Shown one piece after another: positions 30,101-52,904 of a stretch of DNA of 64,000 nt. Below the pieces are notes generated by a model. The model was not told the DNA's origin. It saw only the letters and a list, made by a program, of their open reading frames with translations, and did not search any database. The stretch covers positions 30,387,501-30,451,500 of the forward strand of contig NC_091966.1 in NCBI RefSeq assembly GCF_036711975.1, written 5' to 3'. Position 1 is the first letter of the stretch, and every line of letters starts with the position of its first letter. Origin of the DNA: Onthophagus taurus (Eukaryota; Arthropoda; Insecta; Coleoptera; Scarabaeidae). The translations under genes were made by a program, and so were the position numbers.

Positions 30101-32181
30101 TTCTATTCTTCTTATTATTTCGGTGATCTGGTTTTCTTTGCCCAGCTTGATATCCTGACCAAGGTAGGTGTAGGATGCTATAACTTCTATAATATGATTT
30201 TCGATCGAAAACTGGGGAGTGTACGGACTCAAGATCTTTGCATTTGAAGGTTCATCCTTTTAGACCCATCTCTGCTGATACTTTATAGAGCTGCTCGAGT
30301 ATATTTTTGAACTTCTCTATCAATACGATGTCGTCCGTGAATTTCAGGTGATTTAGGTAAGTGCCGTCGATATTGATACCTTTCTTCTCACAAGATATTT
30401 TCTTGAAGATGTCATCCAGTGCCAACGTGAATAGTTTGGGTGATATCGTGTCTTTCTGTCGAACACCTCTCTCAACTGGGATTTTCTCCGTCAGCATGTC
30501 CTCATCCCGTTTGATCTGTAATGTTGCATTAAGTGATAATCTTAATATTAAGCATATTATTGTTTATAATTTACATTTTCACAATTTTCATCTTTAGAAT
30601 CTATGAACACCAAGTGTAGGGTGGTAATCTACTCTGTTGTCTTCTCGATTGGCATATGCGTGACTTGGAGGTAGTCTATCGTGCTATAGGTTTTTCTAAA
30701 GCCCCTTTGTTCGACTGGTTGATAGAATTTGTTGGTTGAGCGGTTTGTAATTATACTTGTTAACAATTTGTAGAAGATTGCGCAGGCGCCTTTTTTGAAC
30801 AGCAGAATACCTTCTACATTCCTCCACGTCGTTGGAATCATCTGTTCCTGCAGGCATCTGTTCAAGAGGAGCATAAGGATGCCTCTTTTAGTGGATTCTT
30901 TCCCATCTTGAACATTTCATCTGCCACTCTGTCTTCTACAGATGCCTTTCTGTTCCTCATCCTTCTTAAAGCAGCTCGCAGTTTATCACTATCTGTGGTA
31001 TCTCTTCTGAGCCCACATTTACGATGTTCCTCCTCTTATCGTTTACTATATTGTTTGGCGCCGCGCTGTTTAATTTGCAGTAATAGTTCTCGACGATTTG
31101 CTTTGTGCCTAATTTTCGCGTTTAAAAGTCTTTGGTCGCTGCCAGTATTAAATCGGTTGAGGACTTTGATATCCGCACAAATCTCTTTGTTGTTGGTGAA
31201 CTGCAATTAGATATAAGCCAATTTTTTTCCTTTGATTTAGGAAACATTTATACATCAGCTGTTTATATGGTATGAAAATAAACCTCATGGGCAGTTTTGT
31301 TATATCAATGAACATATGACACAAATTTTAAGAAATTTTGACTAAATTAATATTTTTATTCAAAACTACTCGGTTTATAAAGATTATTAGTGACGAGATA
31401 TCTTTTTATAATTTATATTTAATAATAATTCTTAATTTTCAGTATTTTTCTTTTTCGGAAGCATGTATTAGCATGAATCAGCATGAAAAGAAAGGTTACG
31501 TTGAGAGTATTACTTCAGGTACTGGTGTTGATTAAAATAATCAGTCCCTGAGTAAGACTTGCAATATAACACTTTCAATTGCATCCTTATTTATATCCAC
31601 ATATGGTTTTAATGGTTTTTAATTAATTCATTCATAAACTAATTTTTCGAATTCAGAATAATTTTGTGATTTCAGATGATAAACTACGAGAAAAATTAAG
31701 AAAAACCGAAGAAAATCAAAACGCATCTGGCAGCCAAGAGACGAAAGTGGATAAGATGTTGGTTAAAAATTTAGTTGTTGGGTTTATTACGTCAAATAAT
31801 ATTACTTTGAATAAAGACCAACATCAAATATTGAAAATAATCTCGACCGTTCTTGATTTTAATCAACAGGATAACGAAAAGGTTAAATTAAATAAAAATA
31901 ATCAAGGTTCTTGGCTTGGCGCAATTTTACACCCAAATGTTTTATCTCAAAATCAAGGGATGTCTCAAGAATCGTTATCGCAAGCTTTCGTCCGATTTTT
32001 AGAAAACGAATCAACACCAAGACAACTACCAAAACTGCTCAATCCCGATTTACCACTAGAACAACCTGGTACACCACAACCTTTATTATTAAACGAAGTT
32101 GTTCTACCTACGTTTGCTGATTTTGGACAAAATAGAAATTCCAGCTCCATTCTTAAAGATGTATTAAAAGATAATAATTAG
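3067..32181 (+). CDS. Gmap: Golgin GMAP-210/TRIP11 homologue, six coding exons
   Basis: Golgi microtubule-associated protein 210 family: a long coiled-coil tether on cis-Golgi membranes that captures curved vesicles and binds Arf-type GTPases. Coding exons read by eye: 3067-3166, 3285-3352, 10750-10812, 23979-26847, 26958-27161 and 31676-32181. All are bounded by AG and GT, and the phases fit throughout, giving 3810 bases or 1269 residues. The N-terminus is a short amphipathic stretch starting MSWLN, as in Drosophila Gmap. The middle is almost unbroken coiled coil, rich in E, K, L and N. The C-terminal 170 residues resemble the GRAB region. This is shorter than vertebrate TRIP11 (about 2000 residues). 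Introns 3 (13.2 kb), 1 (7.4 kb) and 5 (4.5 kb) are packed with dead transposons. The stop lies about 250 bases before the next gene on the same strand. The exon structure is seen in the sequence; the family assignment rests on the two termini. Confidence 0.88.
4200..4221. repeat. Perfect 22-base palindrome
   Basis: TTAATATATTC followed directly by its reverse complement, in Gmap intron 1. It is AT-rich, so chance is possible. It could extrude as a small cruciform. Confidence 0.6.
5073..5725 (-). pseudogene. hAT-superfamily transposase C-terminal relic
   Basis: The minus strand encodes a 166-codon open piece (5725 down to 5225) containing LNQYFPDIENRYALSWI, typical of the C-terminal half of hAT transposases of the SCAND3/ZBED5/FAM200 type. 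After a short break, another frame at 5160-5073 encodes CESGFSTLISIKTKSRNRL and a stop, the hallmark end of this family (the dimerisation region). The shift between the two pieces shows it is broken. The N-terminal zinc finger and catalytic aspartates are not visible upstream. It lies in Gmap intron 1, antisense to the gene. Confidence 0.72.
5880..5921. repeat. Perfect 19-bp hairpin with 4-base loop
   Basis: The arm 5880-5898 (GCGATCTTGGTGTAGCAAT) is exactly complementary to 5903-5921, with the loop AACC between. It lies 155 bases from the hAT relic, on the side of its lost N-terminus. It may be an internal part of that element or an independent foldback. Confidence 0.85.
6655..7290 (+). pseudogene. 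Non-LTR (LINE) reverse transcriptase relic
   Basis: Plus-strand frames, with interrupting stops and shifts, read through the C-terminal half of a LINE reverse transcriptase: RQGDGLMTCLFN, then ILCYADVVLF (the YADD box with its second aspartate replaced by valine), then SFNYLGLTISS, and near 7230 HVDRMGENRLA, a common C-terminal motif of insect LINEs. Several stops and the altered catalytic box show it is dead. No endonuclease or poly(A) tail was found. The similarity is to family motifs only; the exact clade was not resolved. Confidence 0.7.
7291..9249. other. Gmap intron 1, no recognisable content
   Basis: AT-rich sequence. The minus-strand open frame at 7295-7582 shows no domain. I see no repeat structure, splice-ready exon or RNA gene here. 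Confidence 0.35.
9250..10413 (+). mobile_element. Tc1/mariner-like element with long terminal inverted repeats, decayed
   Basis: The left end TACAGGGTGATTTATAAC and its reverse complement at the right end (10396-10413) define the element. The match continues inwards for about 75 bases with a few mismatches. A second matched block, GAGAACCGCTGAT, lies about 310 bases from the left end but only about 110 from the right, so the left arm has gained roughly 200 bases. Inside, 9705-9880 reads NEEYVDVLIVYGAAGENAAH, the helix-turn-helix start of the insect mariner-like transposases often labelled DUF4817, and then breaks at a stop. The catalytic part is missing, so the element is non-autonomous. A TA target-site duplication is plausible at the ends. 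Confidence 0.8.
10578..10600. repeat. Solo mariner-like terminal repeat end
   Basis: TACAGGGTGTTTCTGTAAGT resembles the ends of the element just upstream but differs after the first nine bases. I found no partner end nearby. It is probably the stub of another TACAGGGTG-type element. Confidence 0.45.
10750..10812 (+). CDS. Gmap: Gmap exon 3 (21 codons)
   Basis: A small in-frame exon encoding IRELRKLNKEFQEKSV and five more residues, with acceptor TTTACAG and donor GTAAGT. Both flanking introns are phase 0, so skipping it would keep the frame. The heptad pattern fits the start of the coiled coil. Confidence 0.85.
11884..11964 (+). promoter_or_regulatory. Possible internal promoter and untranslated first exon
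   Basis: A TATAAAA box at 11884-11890 is followed by an unusually CpG-rich stretch (CGCGCGG inside 11918-11930) and then a perfect donor context, CAAG|GTATGT, at 11965. It lies near the start of the 13-kb intron 3 of Gmap, on the sense strand. It could begin a shorter Gmap transcript or a nested transcript. There is no transcript evidence, and the call rests on composition and the splice consensus only. Confidence 0.35.
11970..17950. other. Gmap intron 3, left half: no gene recognised
   Basis: About 6 kb of AT-rich DNA. A TACAGGGTG end occurs at 15813 without a partner. A 21-base near-palindrome with GGAGAATAGC arms sits at 16930-16950. The open frames at 15532-15837 and 17326-17532 have no domain or splice support. 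The segment 15450-15800 is less AT-rich than its surroundings and may be an unrecognised repeat. Confidence 0.4.
17960..18244 (+). promoter_or_regulatory. CpG- and GTC-rich block ending at a strong splice donor
   Basis: 17960-18060 is dense in CGTCGTCG-type triplets, rare in this AT-rich window. The sequence continues to TTTAG|GTGAGT at 18245. This is the look of a promoter with a non-coding first exon. The minus-strand arginine-rich open frame here (17843-18142) is a by-product of the triplet repeat. It may be a second internal start site for Gmap or a nested transcript. Unproven. Confidence 0.35.
19269..19300. repeat. Perfect 32-base palindrome
   Basis: TAGAAACTCATTATGA is followed directly by its exact reverse complement, with no spacer, in Gmap intron 3. 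This is much longer than expected by chance even in AT-rich DNA. The matching stops sharply on both sides. No surrounding element was recognised. Confidence 0.85.
19930..21300 (-). pseudogene. hAT-like (DUF659-type) transposase relic
   Basis: The minus strand at 20530-20370 reads CSYGCSAHLLNLFCNDLEV and then VFQIWKHFRNNHLARAE, the middle part of hAT transposases in which a conserved AHLLNL block precedes the long insertion region. Many stops and shifts interrupt it. More weakly related text continues on both sides (about 21300 down to 19930), and the outer limits are estimates. It lies in Gmap intron 3, antisense. A perfect 11-bp hairpin (arm ACGAAGCTATG, loop GTAT) at 20018-20043 sits inside it. 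Confidence 0.5.
22760..23110 (-). pseudogene. Jockey/CR1-type reverse transcriptase fragment
   Basis: The minus strand reads QPGFRPEYRYTTPLLDTIDV followed by FRETDNGLTTVMV, matching the QSGFR..HST..AL motif region of Jockey- and CR1-type LINEs. An upstream ISCSQIISKVIE piece is in another frame. Stops and shifts make it a relic. It is about 350 bases long, antisense in Gmap intron 3. Confidence 0.6.
23979..26847 (+). CDS. Gmap: Gmap exon 4: main coiled-coil exon (956 codons)
   Basis: A single 2869-base exon from the acceptor TATTTCAG (ends 23978) to the donor GTAAAT at 26848. It encodes continuous E/K/N/L-rich heptads with few prolines, interrupted only by a short less-charged stretch (FKKFMDYPLPVETNTF) around exon residues 175-200. 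Coiled-coil golgins use such rods to reach out from the membrane. The first codon is AAT, so the exon needs upstream exons or an internal start. The open frame reads a further 38 bases past the donor, but that tail is intronic. Confidence 0.92.
26958..27161 (+). CDS. Gmap: Gmap exon 5
   Basis: Encodes 68 codons of charged coil that continue exon 4 in phase 1 across a 110-base intron. It ends at the donor GTAAGT at 27162. The next exon is 4.5 kb away. Confidence 0.85.
28070..28440 (-). pseudogene. piggyBac-type transposase relic
   Basis: The minus strand at 28340-28215 reads RTDLDKNQTIISWNDNNVVS followed by TSKAV and VKRVHKRNQ. This matches the RG.. / D.....WKD.K.V..LS / V.R..K part of PGBD-like piggyBac transposases, shortly before the conserved YN..MGGVD box, which is degenerate here (HDNLCDENMDGI). 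Shifts and stops are present. It lies in Gmap intron 5, antisense. Confidence 0.6.
28511..28668. mobile_element. Short MITE-like foldback (about 160 bases)
   Basis: The left arm (about 28512-28545, containing ACTTTTACCACCTCTTGATA) and the right arm (about 28633-28668) are inverted copies with a few mismatches and a one-base gap, flanking roughly 90 bases of AT-rich centre. There is no coding content. The size and structure fit a miniature inverted-repeat element. Confidence 0.65.
29655..31215 (-). pseudogene. RTE-like LINE relic (endonuclease end plus reverse transcriptase)
   Basis: On the minus strand, from 31210 downwards: NRFNTGSDQRLL (end of the endonuclease), then 30874-30629 with a degenerate reverse-transcriptase start (WRNVEGILLFKKG), then 30497-30252 with RGVRQKDTISPKLFTLAL and YLNHLKFTDDIVLI. 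The last is the FADD box with alanine changed to threonine but both aspartates kept. RTE-clade elements carry GVRQGDTISPKLFTAAL and YLNHLRFADDIVL here. About 120 non-coding bases at 30500-30625 interrupt the gene, and stops are frequent. It lies in Gmap intron 5. Confidence 0.75.
31338..31535 (+). pseudogene. Possible exon-1 relic of the downstream tandem gene family
   Basis: An open stretch ending in LYLIIILNFQYFSFSEACI and then SMNQHEK. It resembles the signal-peptide region of the gene at 40544 (LFSIIILIFQYSNACI, then TVSHDE) in both hydrophobic core and the AC-I cleavage region. There is no ATG before the hydrophobic core, and a stop follows 23 codons after it. It lies in the last Gmap intron, 1.1 kb upstream of the first tandem paralogue. 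It may be a dead third copy's N-terminus, or a lost or alternative first exon of the 32436 gene. A splice-like AG at 31441-31442 and GT at 31519 are present. Confidence 0.4.
31676..32181 (+). CDS. Gmap: Gmap exon 6: C-terminal GRAB-like region
   Basis: The last exon, joined in phase 1 after the acceptor GATTTCAG. After a short charged linker it encodes KNLVVGFITSNNITLNKDQ followed by ILKIISTVLDF. This resembles the GRIP-related Arf-binding (GRAB) domain of GMAP-210, which binds Arf1-type GTPases at the Golgi. It is followed by SWLGAI and a proline-rich acidic tail. The stop TAA is at 32179-32181. Confidence 0.87.
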
Positions 32182-32304: not shown

Positions 32305-32435
32305 TAATAAATCAATTCCAGATATAGTTTGAAATTATTTTCACAAATACCAAAAAGTTTAAATTAATCACTTGTCAAATGTATGTCAAGCTGAAATAAT
32401 TATACAACTTAATCAAAATTTAATACTTGCTAATA

Positions 32436-35400
32436 ATGATGTTTATGTGGGTTCAAATCCTTGAACTTATAATTAATTCAATGTCGTCCAGTCCAAACTA
32501 TAAGTTATATACTCAAAGTTTAGATTTAGCAAAAAGTGTTGATCAGTTTTCCAGAACTGCACTGGATTTTGAAGGAATTCCCAAAAGGATTACACAGGAT
32601 GAACAACTCATTAAGAAAGTACTCGAAAAGTGTGAAATGATTCATAAGGAAATGTTGCAAGCAATTTACGGAATCGATAAAAAAATAAAAAATATTCAAG
32701 AATCTATCTCATATGATATAGAATTAAAATTGTTTAATAATCATCAGGTGAATCGATTCACAACGAAATTCGATAACTTTATAAATGGTACAAAACAAAT
32801 TGACTATCTTTACACTCAATTTATGAAATTTTATAAAGATTCAACTCTATACAATTTAAAATCACGTCAGATATTTATCGATGCTTGTTTTAATTTAGAA
32901 GATGGTCTAAATTCCACATTATATTTTATGTCAAAAATGTTGGTTGAAGATGGAGGAGCATTTAACTTAATTACTGGGAATGTGATTAAATGTAGTAGAA
33001 TTAGCGAAATTATTGTAAATATTTAACATTTTGTAGACGGTTGAACAACACATTTTAGCGACGCGAAGATTATCAACGTTGGAATATCTATATAATTTAG
33101 TTGCTTATTTCGTTACGATTGAAATTAAAGCTGCGTTAACGATAACCGGTGCTAAAAGAATTGCAATTTTAACAGATTCAGGTGAATATGTTTATGATGA
33201 ATATTATAGGGTCTCTGCTAACTTAATTCTTTCAATATAAACATATAATATATGATTATCAACAAAGGTCTCTGTTACTACCCAATAATATCTCCCTGAA
33301 TCACCAGTATGTTATTTCATAAATGTTTTCGAAAGAATTTCATTGATAATTTATTTGGTTAGTATTAATATTATAATTTTTAATTGTTTTTTTAAGATAA
33401 GGATTATGAAGAGGATTATAACAAATATATGAAATATGTACCGTTGAGAATCATTTCGGTAATTATTTCACTTTTAACATATGCTCCAAAATGTAGTGGG
33501 AGATACTGGGTTTATGATACCCATAAATATAGAATTGGTATGTAGTTTTTATAAATTAGTAATAATACATAACTTATTGATTTTTTAGGGCATAAGTACG
33601 TAGCTTTTAATAATTTTTTGAAAGGATTTTATTATCGTGATACATCCTGTTCATATGCTGGTCAACCGATAAACTCTACTGGAAGTAACATCGAGTAAGT
33701 GTAATCTATTATTTTAATTACATTAAATTAACTGTTTTCTAAAACATCCTCTTTAAATTTTATAATGTGAAAATAGTTGTGAGATATGCATATTTCTCTC
33801 CAAGCACTTACATGTTATAGATAGCTCTGTAATTTGTTAGCTTGGCGTGTCTATTTTTCCAACTTATTTCAAAAGGCAAACATATTTTGATGTAACTAGC
33901 CAAACATTTTCTAAACTGCTGCAAAACGGCAAAATATCCAGATGTTTTCCGCATTTTCTTGAAACTTCTAAATATGCAGATCTGTCTCTTATGTATAATA
34001 GTGCAGTATAGCAGCTTCTTCACCAATTATGGTATCAAAACGATGGCGGCCCTGCTCATTATTATTTACAATTAATTATTTACGTTTCGTTATTTACAAT
34101 AACGAAATTGAAAATATAAATCAGCTGAAGCTTTTTTCAGCATAACTACCCACTTCCTGTACTATCCATATATTGCGAGATGTATGAAATTCCTGGTATA
34201 CACGTTTATAGTTTGGGGCAGAAGGGTTTTAAATTTACATAGCTTATAGTGCTCAATGAATCATGTTTTGCCATGGTACAGTACCCCTATTACAAATAAA
34301 GGAGTCTGCAAAATTTCCATTTTAGTCATTGCTGTATTGATGTAGTGCCAGCACTGTACATGAAGGTTGAACAATCGAGTCTACTTTACTCAAACATGCT
34401 GATATGACCATCTCGCATATCCGACATTATGATACCATTATTGCAAAAGCATGTTTTTCGAATAACATCCCTATTCTTGGATAAGGTTTTGATAAATTTG
34501 GTTGTAGTGGAATCGTCAGCTCATTCAATGATGACTGACTAAAAATTGATGCATCATTCCTACGGCCATTTGCTCCAAATATATCAACTTCAGTGAAGAA
34601 GACTAAGCTAAATTTATAAAATATAATAATAATATATATGAAATTATTTCTTTTGTATTTGAAAAACTATTAAGCTTCGTGTGTAGGGTTGAGAATTAAT
34701 ATGTGCTTTCCCGATTAAAACATGAAGCACCCTGTATAATGCTGAACATTTGATTACTCCACGAGTAATGCGATATATCAACCTGAGACCCATGAGAAGA
34801 AAAGCACATGAAGTGAATACAGTTAGCAAATCAGCTATGGCAGCTGAATAGAATCATTAAAGTCATCCTCGAATAATTTGAGTTGTCCGACTCTTCTCAA
34901 TGACGCTACAATCTCGTAGTTTTACTGAAGAATCAATGAATAGCTGTCGCTAGTAGCTAAAAGAAGTATTAGTAACTTAAGTAATGCTGAAAGAACATTT
35001 TTTTCTAGGAGATGTTCAATTGACTCATGAAAATTTGTAAATATAATTTTGTAACATTGCATATTTTATCTGTTACAGCCGTAGTGAATGTGAAGTGGAA
35101 AATTTTAATTCATGTAATGGAACTCTTCATTGTTTACCAAATTCAGAAACTTCATCTTCTGTAGATATATGTTATAATGTACGTAAACGGTTTTTTTTTT
35201 TAATGGAAATATGTTTTAATTTATGTGAGTTTTAGGCCGAGGGTAAAAATAGCAATTACGAATACGTGGTGATAAATAAAACTGGTACGAAGGATTGCAG
35301 TAGTACAAAAATATCTTATAAACCCAACGCAAAATGTATTGATTGTTTCTGCTATTGCGAAGAGTCTGAAGTAAATGTTCACATATATTTCAGTTTAGAC

Positions 35401-38400
35401 GAAATGGTATCTGACATTGAAAATAATAGGTATGCAGTAATCGATAATAAAATGTTTGTTGAAATACCTTTTTTTGTATTTTATAGAATTATTACTGGAA
35501 TACGTTTTGCTAAATACAACGGAACAGTTACAATGGATATTCAAGTAACTAAGCTACAATTTGATGGTTCATTAATGGAAAGCTCAAGTGTTTGGGTAAT
35601 TAATAAAGCTATTCGAAAATTTCGATTTAGATATTTAAAAAAACAAGAAATTCAGTTAGGCGAAGTTAAAGCGGATAATTATAAAGTAGTAACTGGTAGG
35701 TATTATACAAATGCTTAAATTTTGTAAAAAAATACTACAAAAGATATTTCAAATACTAAGGCATTTGAATCAATTCACCTTGTCTAAGGAATACTGTACT
35801 ACTTTAAATTTTGGCATAATAGCTTTCAGAGAGCAGAACTTTAGCAACACTTCTGTAATGTGCAAATTCATATCTATTTACAATTTGCGACGAAAGCAAT
35901 TATATTTTCGGTTAGCACAGTTTTCGGCATTGTGGCAGCGTTAAACTGCCACAATTTTTGCTGCATTGCGGGATAGTAGTTTTCAAACTTTTGAGATTAA
36001 ATAAAGTAAACGTATAAAGTTGCGAAACATGTACAGCTCTGTTCAGATTTAATGCGAATCGGCCGCTGTTAGCTCCGACATGACGCTGGTACTGGAAGAA
36101 GACGGAAACATCGTTTGTTTCTATTCAATTCGATTTGAGACTAAAGGAAGAGGGTAAAGCCCAGGTAAAACCGTCCCAGTTTGAAGTGGGCCGAAGAATG
36201 GATCACCCTTTTTTTAAATGTGTTAATTTTATTTTATTTTAAATTTTTTTTGATATTTTTAAGCACAACAAATACATGATTTTTTATATGTTCCTGTAAT
36301 AAATGATTTTAGAGTATTTCTATAAATAAAACGTCAGATAAAATTCATTCATGACCGGGTTGCTGTAAAAAAACCCCTAATTACGGAGCAATTGGCTACA
36401 ACACTGTTACGATTTGCCGGTGAATACCTTGAGTGTAATTGGGAACCAGTCATCTTCACAAACGAAAAATCTTCTGTTCGTCGGACGACCATAAGAAATT
36501 GCTATGGCGAAGGGATGGAACCCGGTATGATGCTAATCATGTTCAACCCAATACAAGAAGTGAAATTAAAGGAAGATTTAATACATTCGAGTGCTGGAGG
36601 ATGTTTTGATACCACCAGTAAGAACCTGTATCCAGAAGGGATCATCACGATAGTCCAAGACAATTCGCCCGTGCATTCTTCAAGAATTGTTCATGATTGG
36701 TTTGACGATCATAATGAGGTTAGGCGAATACCCTAGCCACCGTGGTCACCGGATTTAAACCCATTCCAAAATCTATGGGTTTTGGTGAAAAAACAATTCA
36801 ATAAAAATGCCAACTTTCCTTTTCGCAACGTGGATAATCTGCGCCGCAACATTACAGTTGTGTGGGAATTGTTTCGCGGCAAGGATATATGCGAAAGATT
36901 AGTAAATTCGATGTCCACCAGATGGCAATGTTGCATAGAGAATAATGGGTATTATACAAAATACTGATATTTGATGGTATAATGGACCGTATGAAATTCT
37001 CCCCAATTAGATTGTTATAATATTTATTATATTTTATATGTATAATAATATATTATATTTTTTGTTATACTAAAAATAGGAGTGTTATATTTTATTATAT
37101 TGATTTTATTACATTAAAATGGTTTGCGATATATTTCAATATATGATAGTTTATATATAACTTATTATCAATATATCATTTTCATTTCTTTTGAGGTTCG
37201 ACGTATCCTTCCACTGTATTACCAAAGTAATACAGTAATTATTAGTAATTATTTTCATTTACTACAGGAATAGTGTAAAGTAAATGAATTGCTTATACCT
37301 ATTTATTTTCTTAATTTTGTCTTTGTGATTCACTCATCTTGGCCATAAATCACACCACCCCGCAGGTAAAACCGAATTGAATGCCTCGTGAACGTAGGTC
37401 GTTTCTAGTACAATTTTATGCCTCTACGAGCGGCTCTTTTCGCATTATATCTGAACAGAACTGTACATAGCTGTAAAGTTGTACTTTAAAGTATTGATAG
37501 TTTTACGAATAAGTGGCGAGATGTATTCCAGAGGTCATTAATATTGAATTTAATAAAGAAACCTGACAAACGCAAAACTGATTCTGAACTTTTATCGCAT
37601 GATATTTAGGAAAACGAAGAAAAGATATGTAAGAATAAGAAAAGAATGAGTACAATGTATTATAATGGATTCAATCCCATAAACTAAGTCCTATCCGACT
37701 TGTAACCCAAGGACAAGAACACACTGAATTATAGACGCTTTCGTTATGTTAGCAACTCTTAATTCTGTATTCTGAAGGGATACAAAGTAATTGGCATCTC
37801 CACTGCGACATAGGTTGAGAAAAATAGAAAGAAATTTCAACATTAATATTTTTTAAACATTTTTGTGGAACTCATGAAGGAATTATGTGCCTGTAATGCG
37901 AGATCGAACATTTGTGGCTAGGTTCTAAGGAAACAAATCGTTGATGATGTAAAGAAATGTTGCGGTTTTTCTATTTTGCCGACGAAACCTCTGATATTAC
38001 GAAAAGAGCAGTTGTTCAACGTCGGTACATTAACATCTCGGTTCATATTTGATCGTATAGTGAATTAAATATGAATTCTGAGGATTTAGGATTCTGAACC
38101 ATCAAAGCTTGGTGCTGAAATGGTAAACATCGCAATGTGTTCAAGTTCATTGTTTTTATGCAAACATCGGCAAAATATAAAGCTATTCCTTTCTTTTACG
38201 AAAACTATACTAAGGTATACAAAGTCCTTAAAGATTTTGCTACGCATCCAGAGTGTAGCACAGTTGAAAGAACGAAATCTTGTCAGCTATATTTGATAGC
38301 CGGCTAGCTATATCAGAAATTTTCTTGGCATTACCATTGAAACACTTTTTAAAAACTGCAGAATGAGTAATTTTGCAATGATGTCTTAAATAGCGTTTTC

Positions 38401-40346
38401 TGATAAGTAAAAATAATAGATATTAAAAAAGTCAACAATTTTCTACTTTAATTTTTGTAATTCATTCCTTCTTTCGTCGCCCATAGTCCTGCCCAATCAA
38501 TTTATTACAAAAATGACGTTTCAAAATTTCCCCAATCGCGTTGAAAAAACATTTTGCACGATGTTATAAAGAAATGTCTTGAAAGAGACCTGGCAAAGTG
38601 TTCTTTCAAAAATTGCTGTTTCGCCATTCAGTATTCTTGGCAGAAATATTTACAGACCAACGACTTTGCCGATTCCAGCGACATATAAAATGAGGTTCCT
38701 CATAGTCCAAATAATGACCGTTGCGCTTCATCGGTAAATAAAACATTATGGGAAATTTCAGAATTGTGATGAATTTCATGTAAAGCCAATGTACTATCCA
38801 TAGATCATGTCCGGAATGCAGCATTTGAGCAGTAATAGGTAGTATAGATTATGTGTGACACCTATTTCTTGACAACAAACGTGTACTGGTAGTAGGATTA
38901 TTCATAAGTGGAAGTGTTAGGTAAGCGTTAAAGTTGTGAATTTGTGCTATTGGTCTCTATTGCTACTGCTGTGGTAAACTAAAAAATCTTTAATTACTGG
39001 TAACTTCAGCTGTTTTCACTTCAGGATTTGAAATAAAAGTAACACAATACAATTTTTGTGCAATAATCGAAGGCTTTTGAATTAATCTGGGATGAGTGAT
39101 TGTCTAAATGTATGTTTCAACAAAGTGTTGAAGAAAAATAATAAAACCTTTGTCTTGCATCCATCCTAAAGGATTTTCTATTGTCGTCCACTGTACCTCC
39201 CAGCGTTTTAGAGGTAATCACGTTGTTTCAACAGTACCCTGTTATAATCATACGCAGTATACAGGAGTTAGGCAGTCTAAAGACTATGAATAGTTCTTTA
39301 CCATCGACTGTGTGCACAGTGCTTAACTATATAAGTTTGGATCATAGCAAACATGGACCTTCGCCATCTACAATCTGTCTATTATTGGATATGTATAATC
39401 TATTTGAGGTATAAGTGCTTGTGGGCCCTTTGTCGAAGGATGTTTGATGTGAGGAGAAAGCAGCAGCCAATAATTTTGCAAATGGTATAATCCCTTGAAA
39501 GGTTGGGGTTGTCAGCAGAGCAGACTTTTACTCGTTTTACTTTTTGAAGTAACTTATGAAAGGGAAAGCCTCCATCCAAGTCTCCAATAGAGGAAGTACT
39601 GGGAAAAGAAATTCTATCTTCCTAGGTAAAATGGCTAAGTACATTGCTTTGAACATAACATTATGAAAACAATATAAGCGCTGAAGTTGGAGAAAAAGAA
39701 CTGATATAGTAATGTTTGTTTATAAAACAAAATGTGTTAATCTTACTTATTTTGATCATATAAAAATATTTATATGTTGTATTTATTTTAATGGATTTAA
39801 ATTTTAGGTATACGATTTGAAGAGGTTAGCGATGGAGTACAATTACAAGTAAAAGTAAATGATCTGCTAAAATGTTCAAAAGGAAAAATACTATTATCGA
39901 CAACATCTTCCTGGATAAAGCCAAATTTAGGAATGAAAGCAAACGCTAACCTTGACCTGGCATTAGATAATCCAAGTCGAGGTGAAAAGAAACACCCAGC
40001 TTCTATACACAATTTTACTAAAGAGCGAATTAAAATTTCATTAACGAGTTTTGAAGACGATGGAGCCCAGACAGTCATTCCATTTTTTGATACTCGTGAA
40101 GTTATACTTCCGCACCCCCTACCTTTGCGTGGAATTGGATTAGTTTATAAGACATCAGGAGAAATGTGTGGAGGATTTGTAGCACCATACATTATCTTGG
40201 CTGATTTATCAACAGAAATTGATTCAAAATCGTTATTTTTTTTGCAATCACGATTATCAAGTGGACCTAAAAATACTCAATTTGATTACGTTTTGATAAT
40301 AATTTTGATATTAATCAGATTGTTAACTCATTTAATTAATTATTAG
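32436..40346 (+). CDS. Tandem unknown-family gene A: secreted or anchored cysteine-containing protein (DUF4803-like?)
   Basis: Eight coding exons, placed by comparison with the paralogue next door: 32436-32981, 33037-33181, 33397-33537, 33589-33694, 35079-35178, 35236-35429, 35487-35695 and 39808-40346. Together 1980 bases, 659 residues, with phases consistent at every junction. Residues 1-180 are helical and charged. A middle part has GRYWVYDT. Exons 5-6 hold a cysteine cluster (CEVENFNSCNGTLHC, then CIDCFCYC). Exons 7-8 hold ITGIRF, GAQTVIPFFDT and PLRGIGLVY. The end is hydrophobic (YVLIIILILI), suggesting a GPI or membrane anchor. The start (MMFMWVQILELII) is a poor signal peptide, so the true first exon may lie elsewhere. 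From memory the pattern resembles insect DUF4803 proteins, whose function is unknown; this is a weak assignment. It starts about 250 bases after the Gmap stop. Confidence 0.8.
33695..35078. other. Intron 4 of gene A, unresolved insertion
   Basis: 1.4 kb against the short neighbouring introns. A CACCCTGTA end at 34728-34736 hints at a TACAGGGTG-type transposon stub on the minus strand. The minus-strand open frames (34829-34644 and 34026-33808) do not resolve to a family I recognise. Confidence 0.35.
36032..37465 (+). mobile_element. Tc1-like transposon copy with both terminal inverted repeats
   Basis: The left end is TACAGCTCTGTTCAGATTTA followed by ATGCGAA. The right end (37438-37465) is its reverse complement with two mismatches over the outer 27 bases. 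The outermost TA may be the target site. The size of about 1.43 kb is close to a full Tc1-like element. It carries a broken transposase (separate entry) and a very AT-rich 3' part. It lies in the 4.1-kb intron 7 of gene A, in the same orientation as the gene. Confidence 0.85.
36392..36966 (+). pseudogene. Broken Tc1-type transposase
   Basis: The frame carries VIFTNEKS, where an aspartate of the DDE triad normally follows FT, so that catalytic residue is now asparagine. Then come IVQDNSPVHSSRIV (the second aspartate is kept) and, after an in-frame TAG at 36734-36736, PPWSPDLNPFQNLW, where the usual IENLW glutamate is glutamine. The frame continues to QCCIENNGYYTKY and a stop at 36966. The N-terminal DNA-binding region is degraded. 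Two of three catalytic residues and the frame are lost. Confidence 0.82.
37466..38600. other. Gene A intron 7, middle part, unresolved
   Basis: About 1.1 kb with a more balanced base composition than typical intron sequence here. It is probably part of a decayed transposon, but no frame gives motifs I trust. Confidence 0.3.
38606..38830 (-). pseudogene. Mariner-like transposase fragment
   Basis: The minus strand at 38765-38700 reads EISHNVLFTDEAQRSLFGL and then a stop. The LFTDEA block is the first catalytic aspartate region of mariner/Tc-type transposases. The flanking text is degraded and no ends were found. It lies in intron 7 of gene A, antisense. Confidence 0.45.
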
Positions 40347-40543
40347 TAAAATTAATCAATGTTGCCTATTTATATCAATATAGGTATTTGTACTATGTTA
40401 TTATCTATCCAATCTAAGAAACAAATAATGAACACTACAAAGTTTACCATCAATCACTTGTCAATGTAATTTTCAATTTGTAGAAAACGACAAAAAAAAT
40501 CTTTTATTAATTTGTGTGCGCGCGTTTGATTGTAATATTGAAA

Positions 40544-43500
40544 ATGTTATATTGCGCATTTAATTTGTTTTCAATTATTATATTAATTTTTCAATATTCA
40601 AATGCTTGTATAACTGTATCCCATGATGAGATTTACAAAAAGCTGAAAACTGTAGCAAGTACATTAAACGATTTAAATTCTACAGTTGATAACTACTACG
40701 ATAAATTAAAAGATGTAAGTGATATAATCAAAAAGGTTATAAGGAATTTTACGAAAAAAATGAAAAGGGATATGTACGGAGAAGTTAGTCTTGAAATAAC
40801 AAAAAATCGAAAAATTATTGAAAATGTGGTTGAAACGATTGAAATTAATCATCAAAAAGCGTTACAAGAACTCGCCGGAGTAAATAAAGAAGTAAAATCT
40901 ATAGGTGAAGTCGCAGACATTGACAAAAACGAAATTATTATGAATGGGACACGTGTAAATGAATTTGTTGGAGAATTAAAGGGTTTCACGGATTTTGGTA
41001 AAAGTATCGAACGGATGTATGCTATGTTTTTGAATATCTACGGAGATCCAAGTCTAGTCGAAGATAGAAATATATATGAGTTTATTGATTATTGTTTAGG
41101 AAATGACGATTTTAATATGGGACCAGTCCTAAATAATATGCTAAATAATTTAATAGACGAACATGGCGTTTTTAATTTAATGAAAGGAGAAGTAAAGATT
41201 AATAAAATTGTTATCTAACATTTGTGAGTTGTTTATTTTTCTAGGTGGTGGAAAAATATGTTGTAGCTTCACGACGAAAATCAACATTAGAATATCTAAG
41301 TAACTTAGCTCTTTATATGGCAGTTTCAGAAGTCAGATGTTCAATGATGGCTACTAATGCTAAAGGATTGATAAGATTCTTACGACCAGGTATAAAAAAA
41401 ATATAGATTTTAAATTTGTTAATGTTGAATTTTAAAATGTTGCTTCTAGGTACTTTATATAATTCGCAATTGAACTCGTATATGAAGAAAATGACGGAGA
41501 GACTGAATTTATTAGCTCTATCAGTACAAATACATGCTCGACAGTATAGCGGCAGGTATTGGGTGGGCGATACAGAGAACAATAAAATAGGTTAATTTTT
41601 ATAATTGAATTATATTTAAAAGATTATAATTAATTAATTTTTTTAGGGTATCAATATGTGAATTTTTACAATATTTTCAAAGGTCTTTCTTTACGCAATA
41701 AAGATTGTGATAGTATTGGCAAAAAAATTGTCTCTAACGGTACACGTTCCAGGTAATTATTTGATATGTATTTTTATTAGCAAACGTTCGTTCTATGGGT
41801 TAAACATAAAGCCAATTCTTAGGTTCAGCTTTTAATGTCTTTATGGATGTCCAGGATATTTGGAGCACATATCGAATGCTTTCAGGCGATTCATCGCGGC
41901 AGCCTTTAGAGTTCAGATCTCAGCTCCATATGACAACACCGACCAGACATAACCTTTGATCCTTCTTTAACACAATTTTAGGTTTAAGTTGTCGTTACAG
42001 AAGAATGATTTCATTCCCAGAAAAGTTCTGTCAACTGTTTCAATTCGTGTCTTTAGATTTGTGTTTTTCAAATCAATTATTTATTAATATTTATTTGGTT
42101 ATTTCTTTCCATCTCAATTTTAATATAATTGAAATAAAACTATGTGTATTTATAGATGGATGGTTTTTTAATTGTCGGCTCTACCGGTTTCGATTGTTAA
42201 ATTCAATCATCTTCAGGAGCTAGCCACCTGGTGTAATACAAATGAAGAACATTAACTAAAACTTACAACATTTAAAATTTCTATTGCTATTGTTATTTTA
42301 TAAATAAAACGAAAACTCACGTCATTAAATAATTACTTGTATTACACTAGGTGGCTAGCTCCTGAAGATGATTGAATTTAACAATCGAAACCGGTAGAGC
42401 CGACAATTAAAAAACCATCCATCTATAAATACACATAGTTTTATTTCAATTATATTAATTATTTATTAGTTTTAATATATTTGAATAGATGACGATAATA
42501 CTTAATTTTTTGCGAGGTGTAATAAACAATAGCTAATAATTAACTGTAATCGGTTCTAAATGGGATCATGTGTTATCTTTTAACCTTAGCAAATAAAAGG
42601 CGGATCTTTCTAGACAGATATCGTCGCAATAATAGATTTCATTTTGAAGACCAACACCGAAGCTTGCAATACTGAACAGTATATTCTGTTGTTGATTGAA
42701 ATTTCTAATTCTGGTGAAACTTTATGCAATAATGTCTTTATCTGCAATAGCATCGGAAGGGGTGGAGAGGGTAGCAAGAGGAGATGGTGGAGAATGATAG
42801 CTAAGAACTTTCTATCATCCTACGATTTTGTACTTCATAGGAAGAAGAGATTTTGTGGACTTACTAACATTTAGAATACAAACTGTATACTTCAATTTAT
42901 GTTCTTCCTATTCTTTGTGGATATCATATAGGCTTGTTCTACTCATTTTGCACCTGTAGTGTGTTTTCAGTGGTTGCTCTCAAAATCATGTTCTTGGTAT
43001 GCACCATTTTTTCTTTGATTCCGTTGTATCTGCCTATACCCGTCGGGTATATGTTATTATTGAACTGTCGTAGGCTTATTATACCCTCACTTTGATCTCG
43101 GTAGATATGCATTTATTTCTCCTGATAGTCGATCTTAGTGCTCCTCTTATTCTGGCTGACTTATTGACTTGTTTTTTTGAGGTTGTTCTTGAAATATCCA
43201 TAAGATGTTATGCTTACACCCAAATAAGTGGAGTCTGTTACTGCGCAGTTCTTAAACTATTACCAGAGTTTTTGTTTTGGTAACATTTATATCCATGTTG
43301 GCTTTTCCTTTTCATTTGTAGTCTATCCTCTATATCTGCGTAATCAATGTTGTGTCGTTCGTGTAATATAAGATATTTAGTTCCTCTTTCCCATCATGTA
43401 TCCGTGTTGTACCTTACGCACTAATTCTATGATCCAATCAATTAAGGCGTTATAGAGCAACAGGCTAACCCTGCTGTCAACTGCTTACATTGAGTTGTGT

Positions 43501-45680
43501 GTTTATTTCTATTATGTGTGGTGAACTCCCTTACAATTCAACTTTTTTATATCGTACGACAGTCGTATCCCGTCAAACGCTTCCGTGAAATCCATAAAGC
43601 ATAAGTATACTGGTTTGTTGAGTTTTATTGGTCTCTCCCTTACTTAGTTAACTACTAACAGTGACCGCTTCAGAATGCAGAAGATGGAAAAACAGCTTTA
43701 TGAATGTGTCTAGGAGGTACATTTTTCGGTAATTCTCTGGGTCTGAGGATGTTCCTTTCTTAAACGGGAATAGTGATACTGTGTCTCCAGCATACTGGAG
43801 TGTATACGTTCTGCAGTATTTTGTGATACAGCTCTGTGAGTTGTTCTGTTAATCCTACACCTCCCCACTTCAGCAACACATTGGTGATATTGGCTACCGC
43901 TGTGGCTTATTTTATGTTGTTGTTTAAGACCTTCATAGCATTAGTTACCATGTCTTGCTGTCGGATTGGTGTACCTTTACTTTTTGTGGAAGACGCTGCC
44001 TAAATAGGACTTATGTGCTGTCAGTTCTTAGCGATTTGGTGTAGGGATTATGATGTTAAGAACCTAACATCCAATATTTGCTCTGGTCTGATTGCCTTGT
44101 TTGTTATTATGTAACCTATTCTGATGTCCAAAGAAATTAATTGACATCTGCGACCATAATGCAAGGAAAGTATTATGGCTGACGTGAAAATGGCAGTTGT
44201 CTATACGATCGATATACAAAACATATACGATCAAATGAGAATTCTGAGGATTTTGACCACTAAAGAAGCTTGATCTCAAAACAATAAGTATTGCGAGCTT
44301 AAACGTACTATCTAAAGCTCGATTAGGCATAGACAAACGCGTGTGTGTTGGGTATGATGGATGTGTAACAATGATTGGAAAAGAATCGGATATATGACAA
44401 AGAATTAAAATGAATTTGTTACATTAAATCTATTATTATTTATTATTGAATTGGTCTTTTATTTTCAGCTATGATTATTGCGATAAATATAATAAACATA
44501 AATGTAAAGGGACCATTCACTGTTCATCGAACATACATCTTATTACAGATGTACATATTTGTTATAGCGTATGTATAAATTAATAAAAATTATGTACATT
44601 TTACAAAAAAGTTTTTCTTGAACATTCAGAAAAAAACCGAAACCCGACTTTATGATTATGTCAGTTATACGGCTAAAGAGAAACGCGATTGCAGTGGCAC
44701 CAAAGAAACTATTAAAAAAGATAGCAAATGTGTGAATTGTGAATGTTATTGCGATCACAAGCAAGCTGATAAATACATTAGTTTAGATGAAATGGTGACG
44801 GATGTTGCGAATAATAGGTATAATAAACAATATAAAAAATTGACTCTTTATTATTATTAACATTATCGAATTTTATAGAGTATTAACTGGAATACGTTTC
44901 AACAAACACAATGGTGTTATTGGGTTAGATATTGAAGAATCTGAACTTAATGATAATGGATATATAATGGAAGGGACAAGTAAATGGATTATCAATAAAG
45001 GCTTAGATAAACTTGAATTAAAACATCCAGATAAACGAGAAATACATCTAAGTGGAATAGAAACAGACAATCATAGAGTTATAACCGGTATATTATTTTG
45101 ATGCAAAAAAATAACTTTTATTACAAATTGATTGATTTTAGGAGTACGATTTCACGAAGTAGAAGACGGTGTGGAATTACATGTAAGAATTACTGATTTA
45201 ATTTCATGCTCCATAAGTAAAACTATTTTATCGTCGTCTTCTAATTGGATAAATAATGATAAAAAAAGGGAATATAGTATTAACTTGGAAAAAGACAAAG
45301 TCGGCCATCCTAGTCAAGCGGAGACAGAAGATCCAGTAGCCATTCAAAATTTTTCTAAGAGCCGTGTTAGAGTTTCAGCAACTAGTTTTGAGGAAGATGG
45401 AGCTCAAACTGTTATTCCATTTTTTGATGTACGTAAAGTAACACCTTCTAAACCTATGTTGTTACGCGGAATTGGATTGGTTTACAAAAGAGGTAGTAAC
45501 AAGTATGGCGGATTTATAGCCCCATATATTGTTTTGACTGATTACTCAAATCAAATTGATAACGATTTTCTTGAGATAATGGCAAGAAGTTATTCATTTG
45601 GATTGTCTATTTTTATTATTAAAATGAGTTGGGTGTTGATTGTTGTAAATTGTGTAGTATTGTTGGTTTTCTTTGGTTAA
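40544..45680 (+). CDS. Tandem unknown-family gene B: secreted or anchored cysteine-containing protein (DUF4803-like?)
   Basis: Eight coding exons: 40544-41191, 41245-41389, 41450-41590, 41647-41752, 44469-44568, 44630-44817, 44879-45087 and 45142-45680. Together 2076 bases, 691 residues. The ATG at 40544 gives a good signal peptide (MLYCAFNLFSIIILIFQY, then SNAC). Then comes a long charged helical part (residues 25-215), then RQYSGRYWVGDT, a cysteine cluster (CVNCECYC), ISLDEMVTDVANN, ITGVRF-type and GAQTVIPFFDV motifs, PMLLRGIGLVY, GGFIAPYIVLTD, and a hydrophobic end (MSWVLIVVNCVVLLVFFG) that suggests a GPI or membrane anchor. Exons 2, 3, 4, 5, 7 and 8 have exactly the lengths of those in gene A, so the pair arose by tandem duplication. 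Function unknown. The spacer between the genes is only 197 bases. Confidence 0.85.
41790..42060 (-). pseudogene. LINE reverse transcriptase C-terminal fragment
   Basis: The minus strand reads LKTRIETVDRTF, KGYVWSVLSYGAEI and TLKAAAMNRLKAFDM, the region after the reverse transcriptase catalytic core where insect LINEs carry YVWSVLLYG.E.WTL. Stops interrupt it. It lies in intron 4 of gene B, next to the large inverted repeat. Confidence 0.6.
42122..42456. repeat. 120-bp inverted repeat, almost perfect (foldback element)
   Basis: The left arm 42122-42241 and the right arm 42337-42456 are reverse complements over 120 bases with a single mismatch, around a 95-base AT-rich centre. The arms hold CTGAAGATGATTG, then AACAATCGAAACCGGTAGAG (in right-arm orientation). 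There is no coding content. The near identity of the arms suggests a recent origin or ongoing correction. It lies in intron 4 of gene B and separates two LINE fragments. Confidence 0.92.
42870..44060 (-). pseudogene. LINE reverse transcriptase relic (core domain)
   Basis: Minus strand, from 43920 down: LLKWGGVGLTEQLTELYHKI with LQNVYTPVCWRHSITIPV; then NKPVYLCFMDFTEAFDGIRL at about 43620-43560, the palm motif around the first catalytic aspartate; then GKRN and a degenerate YADD box (YYTNDTTLI) near 43370. This order is that of a LINE reverse transcriptase. Stops and shifts are many. Together with 41790-42060 it may be one element split by the inverted repeat. Outer limits are approximate. Confidence 0.6.
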
Positions 45681-45795
45681 TAGAATTAATATGTAATCTC
45701 AACTTAAATTATATTTTATACACTATCAAACTTGCGTCAAACACTATAAACACTTGTGTTTATTAGTCCAGGGATCCACGAAATCATTATATGGA

Positions 45796-45801
45796 AATAA
45801 A
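45796..45801 (+). terminator. Poly(A) signal, likely for gene B
   Basis: AATAAA, 116 bases after the stop codon of gene B. Confidence 0.5.
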
Positions 45802-46136
45802 AATACCAAACAAATTTACTGTTTTGAATAGTGTTATTTCGTGAACGTAAGCATACACTGGGCCAAAAACGTTTCCATACACGCAATAGCAATTTCAACA
45901 TCTGGCTCTTGTTCGTCTAATATCGCATATTATAACAAATATATAATTCAATTAGAATGAACAGGGACTTGGACATTACCTACTTTGCTCAGAAACAGTT
46001 TTTACATAACAATGACTTACATCCGTAACTTTATTACGAAAATACAGATTTCTCAACCAATTCGCAAGTTAATTATTAACTTAAGAAAAGAAGGCAAATC
46101 ATTAAGAAAAATAGGTAAAATTGTTAATTGATCTTA

Positions 46137-47141
46137 TACAGGGTGCGGCAAAATAATAGATTTTATAATAAATATAAAATAATTCGTGCCATTTTCAGTT
46201 ATGAAACGCCCGATGGACTGAAGTGCATCGGGCGGTTGTAATCGACTAATTTATTAGAAATGGCGAGTCTGTTATAGCTTGCTTTCCGTATTTGGTTTAA
46301 TTTTGGCCGTCATGGTGCCATTCCAGACGGAAGAACAATTCGTTGGTGGGTTTTAAACTTTGGCGAAACAGGTTCTGCGCTTAAGCGAAAACCTACTAGC
46401 CGACCAAGGATAGCAGAAATACCGGAAAATGAGAATGCAGTCAGAGTCTCACTACGGTAGACTCCCACACGTTCTGCCTACGTATGCAGCTGCGTTAGGA
46501 ATATCGCGGATAAAAGTGTTCGAAAAATTTTACACAAGTCGTTCGGAATGCATCCACATAAAATGATGGTGATACAGGAATTAAGTGAAAGAAATTTTGA
46601 AATGCGTATAAATCTGCGTTCTTTACAACGTTCCCCCGACAGCTGTTTTCATGTCTAGCGACGAAGCTCATTGCCATGTCTCGAGCAGTATGAATAAGCA
46701 GAATTTCCGCTATTGGTCTGAAAATAGTCCTCGGGAACTTCATGAGCGACCACTTCACAGCCCGAAGGTTACAGACTGGTGTGCAGTATCTGGTGTCGGC
46801 GTGTGGGATCCTTACTTTTTTGAAGAGGATAGAGTAGAACAGTGGCCTGCGCGTTCGCCTGATCTATCCCCTGCGGTTTTTTTCTTTGGAGATACCTTAA
46901 AGCCCAGGTTTTTAAACAAGAGATGAGTCACAGAGCAATTCACTTTTGTGAAAACCTGCAAGACTGTAATGATGCAATAATGGCCGCTATTTAAGTAATG
47001 TTATTTTCAAAACATAAATTAATTCTTTAAATCTTTTCAAATAATAAAGCTTCTAATGATAAAACCAGTTTTTCTTTGCTTTGTGTGGTTTGGTTTTTAT
47101 TGATATTCCAAACACTACTAATTATTTTGCCGCACCCTGTA
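46137..47141 (+). mobile_element. Mariner-like element with both ends, transposase deleted internally
   Basis: The ends TACAGGGTGCGGCAAAATAA (left) and its reverse complement (right, about 47122-47141) bound a 1.0-kb element in the spacer between gene B and NOP58. The plus strand reads IPDGRTIRWWVLNFGETGS, then SDEAHCHVSSSMNKQNFRYW, then NPRELHERPLHSPKVTDW with GVGVWDPYFFEED, and then jumps directly to QWPARSPDLSPAVFFFGD. The segment holding the second catalytic aspartate is missing, and stops and shifts occur. It cannot move by itself. Family: insect mariner-like transposases with the SDEAHF and PDLSPCDFFLWG motifs. Confidence 0.85.
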
Positions 47142-48606
47142 TAACGGTGCTATTTATAATATAATAAGTAAATATCAAGAATTACCAAATTGTGAAAATA
47201 GTATTCGTCATTTTACATAAAAATGAACCAAATGAAAGTCGTTCTGTCCCAAGTGAGAAATCATATGACGATAAATTTTTTTGACCTTGAACTTATTTTC
47301 AAGGTTATATGAAGGTCACGAACAATTTTTTAAATGGCACCCTATACAATGGACCCATACTTTGTTATTTGATGTCAAGTCACCTGTAGGACAGCTTTAT
47401 TTGGCCTTTAAACTGATTTATCATCTTCATAGAAAAAATCTAGGCTTAAATTGAGCGGGGGTGGTTACGTTTAGTAGTTTAAAAGGGTAGGTTGAAAGTA
47501 CAAATAGGGTCAAAACGTGCCCTATTATGAGTTAAACATATTCCCCTAATTTCATTTTCCTAGCGTTTATTGTTTTTGAGAAAAAAAAATTAAACCAATA
47601 TTTTCCGCCATTTTTGGAAGGGTGTAGCTCCTTAGGGGAGCCGAAGTCGCCCATGGTTCATATATCAAAGTACCCTTAAAATTGCCTAAAGAATCACCCC
47701 TGAAGTTTGGGCACGTCATTCAGATAGACCCTGTATATATGTTGTCATGGTTACAAGTTTTTAGACTCATCACTGGCGCCAGTGATTTCAGAAGGGTGCA
47801 GCCTTTTCCGATCCATGCATGCCAGTTGATGTTTACACATGCAATTTAATTTTACTGGCGCGCCAGTTTTTATTGGCGCCACTAAATCCATGCATGTCTA
47901 AACTCACTATAACTTACAACGCTTTCGATATCTGATATTTTCAAATATTGCTGCCTTTCAACAATGGCGTATAGATCTCTACGAAGCGCTTTGCTGTTGG
48001 AAATACAGCACTATCATAATTAGACATGTACAGAAATATTCAGCAACAATCGAGATTTTTAAGAAATCTCAGCAAATAGGGTAATTAACAATGTAAGGTT
48101 TAAGACAACCGATCATTATTTGTCTTACGTTTTCAAAGCAAAAGAAATGATATGTTCTAGAATGCTGTAAATTAACTGTCAAAACAATTGTGATCAAAAA
48201 ATAATTTCTGTGCAGCTAATAAAAAAAAATTAATGGACATATCTGTCGTAATACCATGTCCTTGACATTTATTAAATGATAATTTAGATTATTAGGCGTT
48301 AAAAATTTTATTCTTCATGGGCATGGTCAATGTTTCAAATATTTGGAAACTTGTGAAAATTGAGGTAATAATGCTTTAAGTAATTTCAAGTTATTGGCAT
48401 ATTGAAATTGAAAGTATAAATGAATATAAATCTTGCCTTTATAGTTCATTAGCAGTTTTCATGATACAAGAAAATTGTTTACCCTAAGTCTCAACCTTCA
48501 TAACTGGTCCTAAATTCCTAAACAACTTGACTATATACATAACAGTACATAATCCTATTCTCTAAGTATTAATATTAAAAAATAAGTGTTCAAACAAAAA
48601 ATTGTT
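47142..48606. other. Spacer with transposon-end and palindromic remnants
   Basis: ACCCTGTA at 47728-47735, read on the minus strand, is a TACAGGGT-type end with the 400 bases beside it fairly GC-rich, probably a non-coding element. 47765-47900 holds CTGGCGCCAG and ACTGGCGCGCCAGT palindromes and two copies of ATCCATGCATG. No gene was recognised. Confidence 0.4.
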
Positions 48607-48612
48607 TTTATT
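48607..48612 (-). terminator. Poly(A) signal for NOP58
   Basis: AATAAA on the minus strand (TTTATT on plus), 138 bases past the NOP58 stop codon. Confidence 0.5.
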
Positions 48613-48749
48613 TCTGAAAAAATTAAAATAAAACTTTATCAAATGTATTTTCTTAACTGTCTAAATAATGTAATTCACATTACATTACAAGTTTTATATA
48701 AAAAGAAATTTTATATTTAATCATTTTAATCGATATAAACAAAGAAAAA

Positions 48750-52650: not shown

Positions 52651-52904
52651 TTTATATTATAATTTTCATGTTGCATATCAAAATCAACATCTCTATGGAG
52701 TCTATGTACATGTATTCATTTATTTTGATGTGTGCAACTTTTTGATCGCACTGTACTTAACACTATTTCGCTTAAACAATATTGAACTCTTTCGTAATAA
52801 TATTGGTCTATTCTGTATTTTCACACAATAAATGAAGTGAATCATCAGTGGCTTGTGTGTCTATGTATAGTAGACCCTGCACTCGTTGAAAACGTATCAG
52901 ACTT

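Follow-up and report, generated by a model that had tools for sequence, protein, structure and literature searches.

Analysis of a 64,000-nucleotide (nt) stretch of the Onthophagus taurus genome (C1:30387501-30451500 of a 291-Mb assembly of 33 contigs), referred to here as the window, revealed two adjacent forward-strand genes that belong to the DUF4803 family (PF16061) and form an intact tandem pair. The genes, for which the working names g1 (32436-40346; eight exons, 659 amino acids) and g2 (40544-45680; eight exons, 691 amino acids) are used, both have a reading frame that is uninterrupted after splicing, and all 14 of their introns have GT..AG ends. The explanation that we favour, with roughly even confidence, is that g1 and g2 constitute an old tandem DUF4803 pair encoding tail-anchored proteins that would act jointly outside the cell.

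Family membership and gene structure of g1 and g2

The Pfam gathering cut-off for PF16061 is 27 bits. The g1 protein matched this profile at 76.3 bits (E 3e-21), with residues 191-426, encoded by exons 2 to 7, covering profile positions 5-252 of 255; the g2 protein matched it at 87.1 bits (E 1.6e-24), with residues 225-461 covering profile positions 5-255 of 255. Both genes are DUF4803 members. An account of this DNA made from the sequence alone (the original prediction) had placed the pair in an unknown family, which these matches do not support, and had named DUF4803 as a profile to be searched, a guess that proved right.

Published work describes DUF4803 proteins from arthropods only and gives as motifs CxxCxCxC and VI/VTGIK/RF, the latter lying at the domain end and duplicated toward the C-terminus (PMC8310156). 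The cysteine motif is present in exon 6 of g1 and of g2 (Table 1). The duplicated motif appears as TGIRF at residues 414 and 480 in g1 and as TGIRF at 446 and TGVRF at 512 in g2, and the internal-repeat score was matched by none of 1000 shuffles for either protein. The cysteine cluster and TG.RF, together with GRYWV, GAQTVIPFFD and GIGLVY, are common to g1 and g2 as originally predicted. An RRY motif is termed canonical yet poorly conserved in DUF4803 (PMC8310156). RRY occurs nowhere in g1 or g2, and it was not taken as defining because the available text of that paper gives no place for it and reports its poor conservation.

Comparison of the two genes revealed identical intron phases (0,1,1,2,0,2,1) and identical lengths for exons 2, 3, 4, 5, 7 and 8 (145, 141, 106, 100, 209 and 539 nt), exactly as the original prediction had it. 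In the alignment of the two proteins all seven introns fall at aligned residues with matching phase. The gene models were examined with a custom protein-to-genome spliced aligner whose splice weights were trained on g1 and g2 themselves. With the weights on, the seven introns of each gene were recovered using the protein of the other gene; with the weights off, all seven g2 introns were recovered, and in g1 intron 2 moved at both ends and intron 4 at one end, by 5 to 8 bases. The donor of g1 exon 1 (GTGATT) is weak, and no acceptor scoring above 0 was found near this exon.

Searching the window with both proteins (tblastn) found no further DUF4803 copy, and all matches outside g1 and g2 had E values of at least 0.24. 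The best of them, at 31407-31487, resembles the signal-peptide region of g2 at the peptide level with a score of 60; the comparison scores were 50 for the best match in 1-31300, 36 in 45700-64000 and 35-54 in 12 shuffled 30-kb sequences. This segment has no in-frame ATG ahead of its hydrophobic stretch, and half of it precedes a good acceptor (31442). Intron and exon sequence of the golgin-type gene upstream probably accounts for it; it is unlikely to be a first exon of g1, whether lost or alternative, and was not accepted as one.

The two proteins are 38% identical over about 600 residues (BLASTP E 1e-154), in line with the strong divergence originally claimed. Exon 1 is the least similar part (28% identity) and is 34 codons shorter in g1 than in g2. 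Ungapped nucleotide identity is 0.54-0.62 in exons 2-5 and 7 and 0.37 in exon 8, where the protein alignment has a one-residue internal gap plus gaps in the tail; the equal length of exon 8 therefore results from small indels that offset each other. The substitution analysis proposed with the original prediction was carried out between the two copies and gave 0.58 for nonsynonymous (dN) and 1.29 for synonymous divergence (dS) by the NG86 method. These values point to selection that is purifying on average and to dS near saturation, which makes the duplication an old one.

None of the seven intron pairs aligned better than its own shuffles (100 shuffles each, but only five for introns 4 and 7). 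Intron 7 measures 4112 nt in g1 against 54 nt in g2, a difference that insertions may explain; a transposase-like frame lies in intron 7 of g1 (36326-36736; HTH_Tnp_Tc3_2 match below the cut-off). Intron 4 of g2 contains an inverted repeat (42120-42458) with two 122-nt arms, 99% complementary and 95 nt apart, which is probably a foldback transposon or one of the miniature inverted-repeat transposable element (MITE) type.

DUF4803 genes elsewhere in the genome and the origin of the exon plan

The genome was searched with the PF16061 profile, the g2 protein and a piece of the protein of gene A (described below), and the counts are lower bounds. With the profile five matches were obtained, none inside the window, and they fall in four genes; g1 and g2 were presumably missed because this search works exon by exon and single exons score too low. 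The g2 protein gave 22 matches and the A piece 11, all within seven genes. At least seven DUF4803 genes are thus present: g1, g2, A and B on contig C1, one on C5, and two on C7 (C7a and C7b). The full CxxCxCxC motif is also present in B and in the C5 gene, as is RRY; the full cysteine motif was not found in A, C7a or C7b.

A (2917535-2924101) and B (2924279-2935228) form a second head-to-tail pair, 177 nt apart, and each matched PF16061 at about 105 bits. Their proteins are 33-35% identical to those of g1 and g2. In the hand-finished models A and B have eight exons each and intron phases 0,1,1,2,0,2,1, and their exons 2, 3 and 7 match those of g1 and g2 in length at 145, 141 and 209 nt. The lengths of exons 4, 5, 6 and 8 differ from those of g1 and g2 (124, 112, 197 and 518 nt in A; 100, 97, 200 and 536 nt in B). 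Three of the six matching lengths in A and B rest on choices made with the expected answer known: exon 7 of A and exon 2 of B were each given a GC donor, and for exon 3 of A the lower-scoring of two acceptors 3 bases apart was used to give 141 nt, the other giving 144 nt. The unguided aligner gave 145 nt for exon 2, 141 or 144 nt for exon 3 and 213 nt for exon 7 of A, and 141 nt for exon 3 and 209 nt for exon 7 of B; exon 2 of B was not found by it. GC donors are required at conserved positions in intron 7 of A (C1:2919394) and intron 2 of B (C1:2928570), and these may be GC-AG introns, damaged sites or wrong models.

The models of the C5 and C7 genes are approximate and incomplete. In the C5 model, which was guided by the g2 protein, introns 5, 6 and 7 have the same phases as in g1 and g2, and so does intron 1 on a weak alignment. 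The modelled parts of C7a and C7b are 54% identical, and upstream of them the two genes have similar signal-peptide-like starts (LLVISLLF; L003 790-1071, L004 408-632).

Overall, the structural match between g1 and g2 is far beyond chance and yet as expected from common descent. The exon plan is most simply an inherited gene structure older than the g1/g2 pair, because the second pair can be read with the same plan and introns are common to the distant C5 gene. Equal exon lengths as the mark of a special constraint were considered and rejected, since the second pair has exons 4, 5, 6 and 8 of other lengths and the C5 gene shares introns; for exon 8 in particular, the equality within g1/g2 is due to the offsetting indels. 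A diverged tandem pair with equal exon lengths can therefore be plain inherited structure.

Phylogenetic analysis of the seven proteins placed the four C1 genes on one side of a branch with support of 100/100 and joined g1 and g2 as sisters with 98/99, in line with the tandem paralogues of the original prediction. Trees forcing g1 or g2 together with A or B were rejected in all four pairings by the approximately unbiased (AU) test (p 0.0004-0.0015), and A and B as sisters were neither shown nor rejected (p 0.33). Most simply, the trees suggest that g1 and g2 arose by a duplication of their own once their line had parted from A and B. A simple block duplication of an existing pair was rejected, given the sister relationship of g1 and g2 and the rejection of every cross-pairing tested.

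Hydrophobic tail, upstream block and spacer

In the proteins of g1, g2, A and B a hydrophobic stretch reaches the C-terminus or stops within two residues of it. The best 16-residue hydropathy in this tail is 1.93-2.85 in all four C1 genes and -0.04 to 0.48 in the other three, whose open frames stop shortly past the point equivalent to the tail. At the N-terminus the best 12 residues reach 2.62 in g2 and 2.00 in g1 by hydropathy. By rule of thumb, omega-site candidates for a glycosylphosphatidylinositol (GPI) anchor lie at residue 631 in g1 and at 660-666 in g2. The hydrophobic C-terminus noted in the original prediction is thus seen in both proteins, and the anchored surface protein proposed there is suggested by hydropathy alone.

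A block of sequence with 32 of 39 aligned columns identical lies upstream of each gene, between the golgin-type gene and g1 and again between g1 and g2. It holds an exact 13-mer, AATCACTTGTCAA, of which the window has no further copy even when one mismatch is allowed. The block score was reached by none of 489 random window pairs, by 4 of 500 dinucleotide shuffles and by 6 of 5000 AT-rich noncoding pairs, one of these six spanning a listed repeat pair. The block suggests a duplicated promoter element; g1 and g2 would then be transcribed from starts of their own and might be regulated in common. In the second pair the 13-mer does not occur, and an upstream element common to both pairs was rejected as a candidate, the best scores being 10-14 against 18.5 for g1/g2.

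A common upstream block argues against regarding g1 and g2 as plain tandem duplicates of the same family and architecture that have drifted to separate jobs with neither partnership nor shared regulation, and so does their adjacency, which has been kept despite synonymous sites near saturation. The low protein identity, the poor likeness of exon 1, and the shorter first exon and weaker signal start of g1 nevertheless fit such drift, and of the 21 clade V DUF4803 venom genes that were knocked down in Asobara, only 5 had an effect on imaginal discs (PMC12822402). We consider separate jobs possible, though doubtful.

No AATAAA or ATTAAA was found in the 197-nt spacer between g1 and g2 or in the 177-nt spacer between A and B. 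These spacers invite the view that g1 and g2 are translated into two partner proteins from one dicistronic transcript, as does the fact that A and B are in one reading frame. In Meteorus pulchricornis two in-frame tandem DUF4803 proteins, both with a predicted C-terminal transmembrane segment, lie on one assembled transcript, contig 38 (PMC8310156). The absence of AATAAA, however, says little, because only 0.37 occurrences are expected in 197 nt. Furthermore, g1 and g2 are in different frames, the upstream block is present once for each of them, the pairs g1/g2 and A/B were not copied as a block, and the expression of the two Meteorus proteins, 38.p1 and 38.p2, is about tenfold apart (PMC8310156). 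A single dicistronic transcript is unlikely on this evidence.

In the explanation that we favour, the g1 and g2 proteins would each enter the secretory pathway and would consist of an N-terminal region whose fold is unknown, a core rich in cysteines (C..C.C.C) and a C-terminal part carrying the TG.RF repeat, whose copies lie at the exon 7 start and across the exon 7/8 junction. The tail would tether each protein to the outside of the membrane in a GPI-like or tail-anchored manner. Expressed from separate sister promoters, the two proteins would partner in an extracellular binding or receptor-type complex. The pair may represent a non-venom state of DUF4803, and soluble, jointly acting venom factors of wasps would have been recruited from such a state. 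Joint action of g1 and g2 is proposed by analogy with these venom relatives, and a comparable tandem of tailed proteins is reported from the vesicles of Meteorus (PMC8310156).

Several observations weigh against this explanation. The start of g1 is a weak signal peptide candidate by hydropathy and its stretch includes Q and E, the tail of g1 contains R and H, and the tail-less genes (C5, C7a and C7b) may have a further 3' exon. Comparison with solved structures found no match to either protein. Structure prediction, proposed with the original prediction, was applied to the exon-8 part and gave a model too poor for use (predicted local distance difference test, pLDDT, 32.8), and secondary-structure propensities do not set regions of the proteins apart. 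For the upstream block, an exact match of at least 13 occurred in 10 of 500 shuffles and at least two near-copies of the 13-mer in 4 of 100 whole-window shuffles, and the strength of the block is moderate because the sequence had been looked at before the block was noticed. Joint action, finally, is known only from a different lineage, and there only for venom proteins. The search for known folds in the N- and C-terminal parts gave only sub-threshold Pfam matches (e.g. ApoLp-III, E 0.02-0.05), which are not believed, and no relatives were found in viral contigs or prokaryote genome contigs.

Neighbouring features and comparison with known DUF4803 proteins

Table 1. Exons, upstream blocks, spacer and candidate poly(A) signal of g1 and g2 (positions in the window).
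Feature	Position	Strand	Basis
Upstream block of g1, common to g2; holds AATCACTTGTCAA at 32366; candidate promoter element	32346..32383	+	
g1 exon 1; N-terminal region; short hydrophobic start MFMWVQILELII, weak signal peptide candidate	32436..32981	+	
g1 exon 2, 145 nt	33037..33181	+	spliced alignment
g1 exon 3, 141 nt; GRYWV	33397..33537	+	spliced alignment
g1 exon 4, 106 nt	33589..33694	+	spliced alignment
g1 exon 5, 100 nt	35079..35178	+	spliced alignment
g1 exon 6, 194 nt; cysteine cluster CIDCFCYC	35236..35429	+	
g1 exon 7, 209 nt; TG.RF copy 1	35487..35695	+	
g1 exon 8, 539 nt; GAQTVIPFFD, GIGLVY, hydrophobic C-terminal tail, stop; TG.RF copy 2 across exon 7/8 junction	39808..40346	+	
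Spacer, g1 stop to g2 ATG, 197 nt	40347..40543	+	
Upstream block of g2, common to g1; holds AATCACTTGTCAA at 40452; candidate promoter element	40431..40468	+	
g2 exon 1; N-terminal region; signal-peptide-like start	40544..41191	+	
g2 exon 2, 145 nt	41245..41389	+	spliced alignment
g2 exon 3, 141 nt; GRYWV	41450..41590	+	spliced alignment
g2 exon 4, 106 nt	41647..41752	+	spliced alignment
g2 exon 5, 100 nt	44469..44568	+	spliced alignment
g2 exon 6, 188 nt; cysteine cluster CVNCECYC	44630..44817	+	
g2 exon 7, 209 nt; TG.RF copy 1	44879..45087	+	
g2 exon 8, 539 nt; GAQTVIPFFD, GIGLVY, hydrophobic C-terminal tail, stop; TG.RF copy 2 across exon 7/8 junction	45142..45680	+	
AATAAA, candidate poly(A) signal, about 115 nt past g2 stop	45796..45801	+	

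Upstream of g1, the last exon of the golgin-type gene (31627-32181), with GRIP and GRAB domains, ends 254 nt before g1; the same gene may also include a long coiled-coil-like frame at 23952-26885. Downstream of g2 lies a Nop family gene on the reverse strand (small nucleolar RNA-binding, NOP58-like; 48750-50384), and part of a cytochrome P450 gene (PF00067) is present at 63414-63821. Traces of mobile elements comprise a reverse transcriptase fragment (30255-30563, reverse strand, below the cut-off) and an IS4-type transposase fragment (PF13843; 53831-54115, reverse strand, above the cut-off). The region 57451-61669 consists of nested direct and inverted repeats that are 88-96% alike, with a 55-nt hairpin at 61477-61604. 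A transfer RNA scan with bacterial settings and an Rfam scan of the window found nothing.

DUF4803 proteins are reported from the venom of braconid wasps (PMC8310156, PMC5078806, PMC6954513, PMC12044726), and the biting midge allergens Cul n 3, Cul n 5, Cul n 10 and Cul o 10 are assigned to the DUF4803 superfamily (PMC8592417). In Asobara japonica, knockdown of any one of VID-1 to VID-5 suppresses degradation of the host imaginal discs (PMC12822402), and IDDF-1 and IDDF-2 are reported to cooperate in disc apoptosis and autophagy (review PMC13301370). A word search of PMC12822402 returned no mention of a transmembrane segment. Since the family is reported from wasp venom and midge allergens, that of g1 and g2 is not undescribed, and the undescribed biology of the original prediction holds in part: the family is known, while its molecular action is not established in the literature covered and the tailed subgroup has no known job.

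The venom and allergen record, together with the strong divergence of the two proteins, could also be taken to mean that g1 and g2 are dedicated venom or saliva effectors secreted onto host or prey. Against this, seven genes were found here compared with 91 in Asobara japonica and 41 in Microplitis demolitor (PMC12822402), although the counting methods differ, and the tail speaks for a protein kept at a membrane, although the Meteorus pair has tails too and is a product of venom vesicles. Such effectors are very unlikely.

DUF4803 proteins are abundant venom components of several braconids and some are needed for the destruction of host tissue. The seven-gene set, with four tailed and three tail-less members, is a small system for asking what DUF4803 does outside venom. 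What is worth pursuing is the tailed group and the close pairing seen twice. At the speculative end, and with very little confidence, tail-anchored close pairs of DUF4803 in insects without parasitoid venom might form an obligate two-part surface complex with a developmental or immune role, and the disc-killing venom DUF4803 proteins might be soluble copies acting on the host partners of that complex.

Comparison with other DUF4803 genes revealed both likenesses and differences. The second pair, A/B, resembles g1/g2 in its PF16061 match, eight exons, reading with the same phases, hydrophobic tail and short spacer, and differs in four exon lengths, two GC donors and the lack of the shared upstream 13-mer. 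The Culicoides allergens are likened by family only, through their superfamily assignment, and differ in being known as allergens of biting midges (PMC8592417). The Asobara japonica proteins VID-1 to VID-5 and IDDF-1/IDDF-2 share DUF4803, and the VIDs arose by duplication and several of these proteins act jointly (PMC12822402, PMC13301370); they differ in being venom factors from a family of 91 copies that were tested by RNA interference or co-injection (PMC12822402). The pair 38.p1/38.p2 of Meteorus pulchricornis, likened by description, is likewise a tandem DUF4803 pair with tails predicted to be transmembrane segments, and its members are 31% identical to each other compared with 38% for g1/g2. 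It differs in lying in one frame on one transcript contig, and in consisting of highly expressed venom-gland products found in vesicles by mass spectrometry (PMC8310156).

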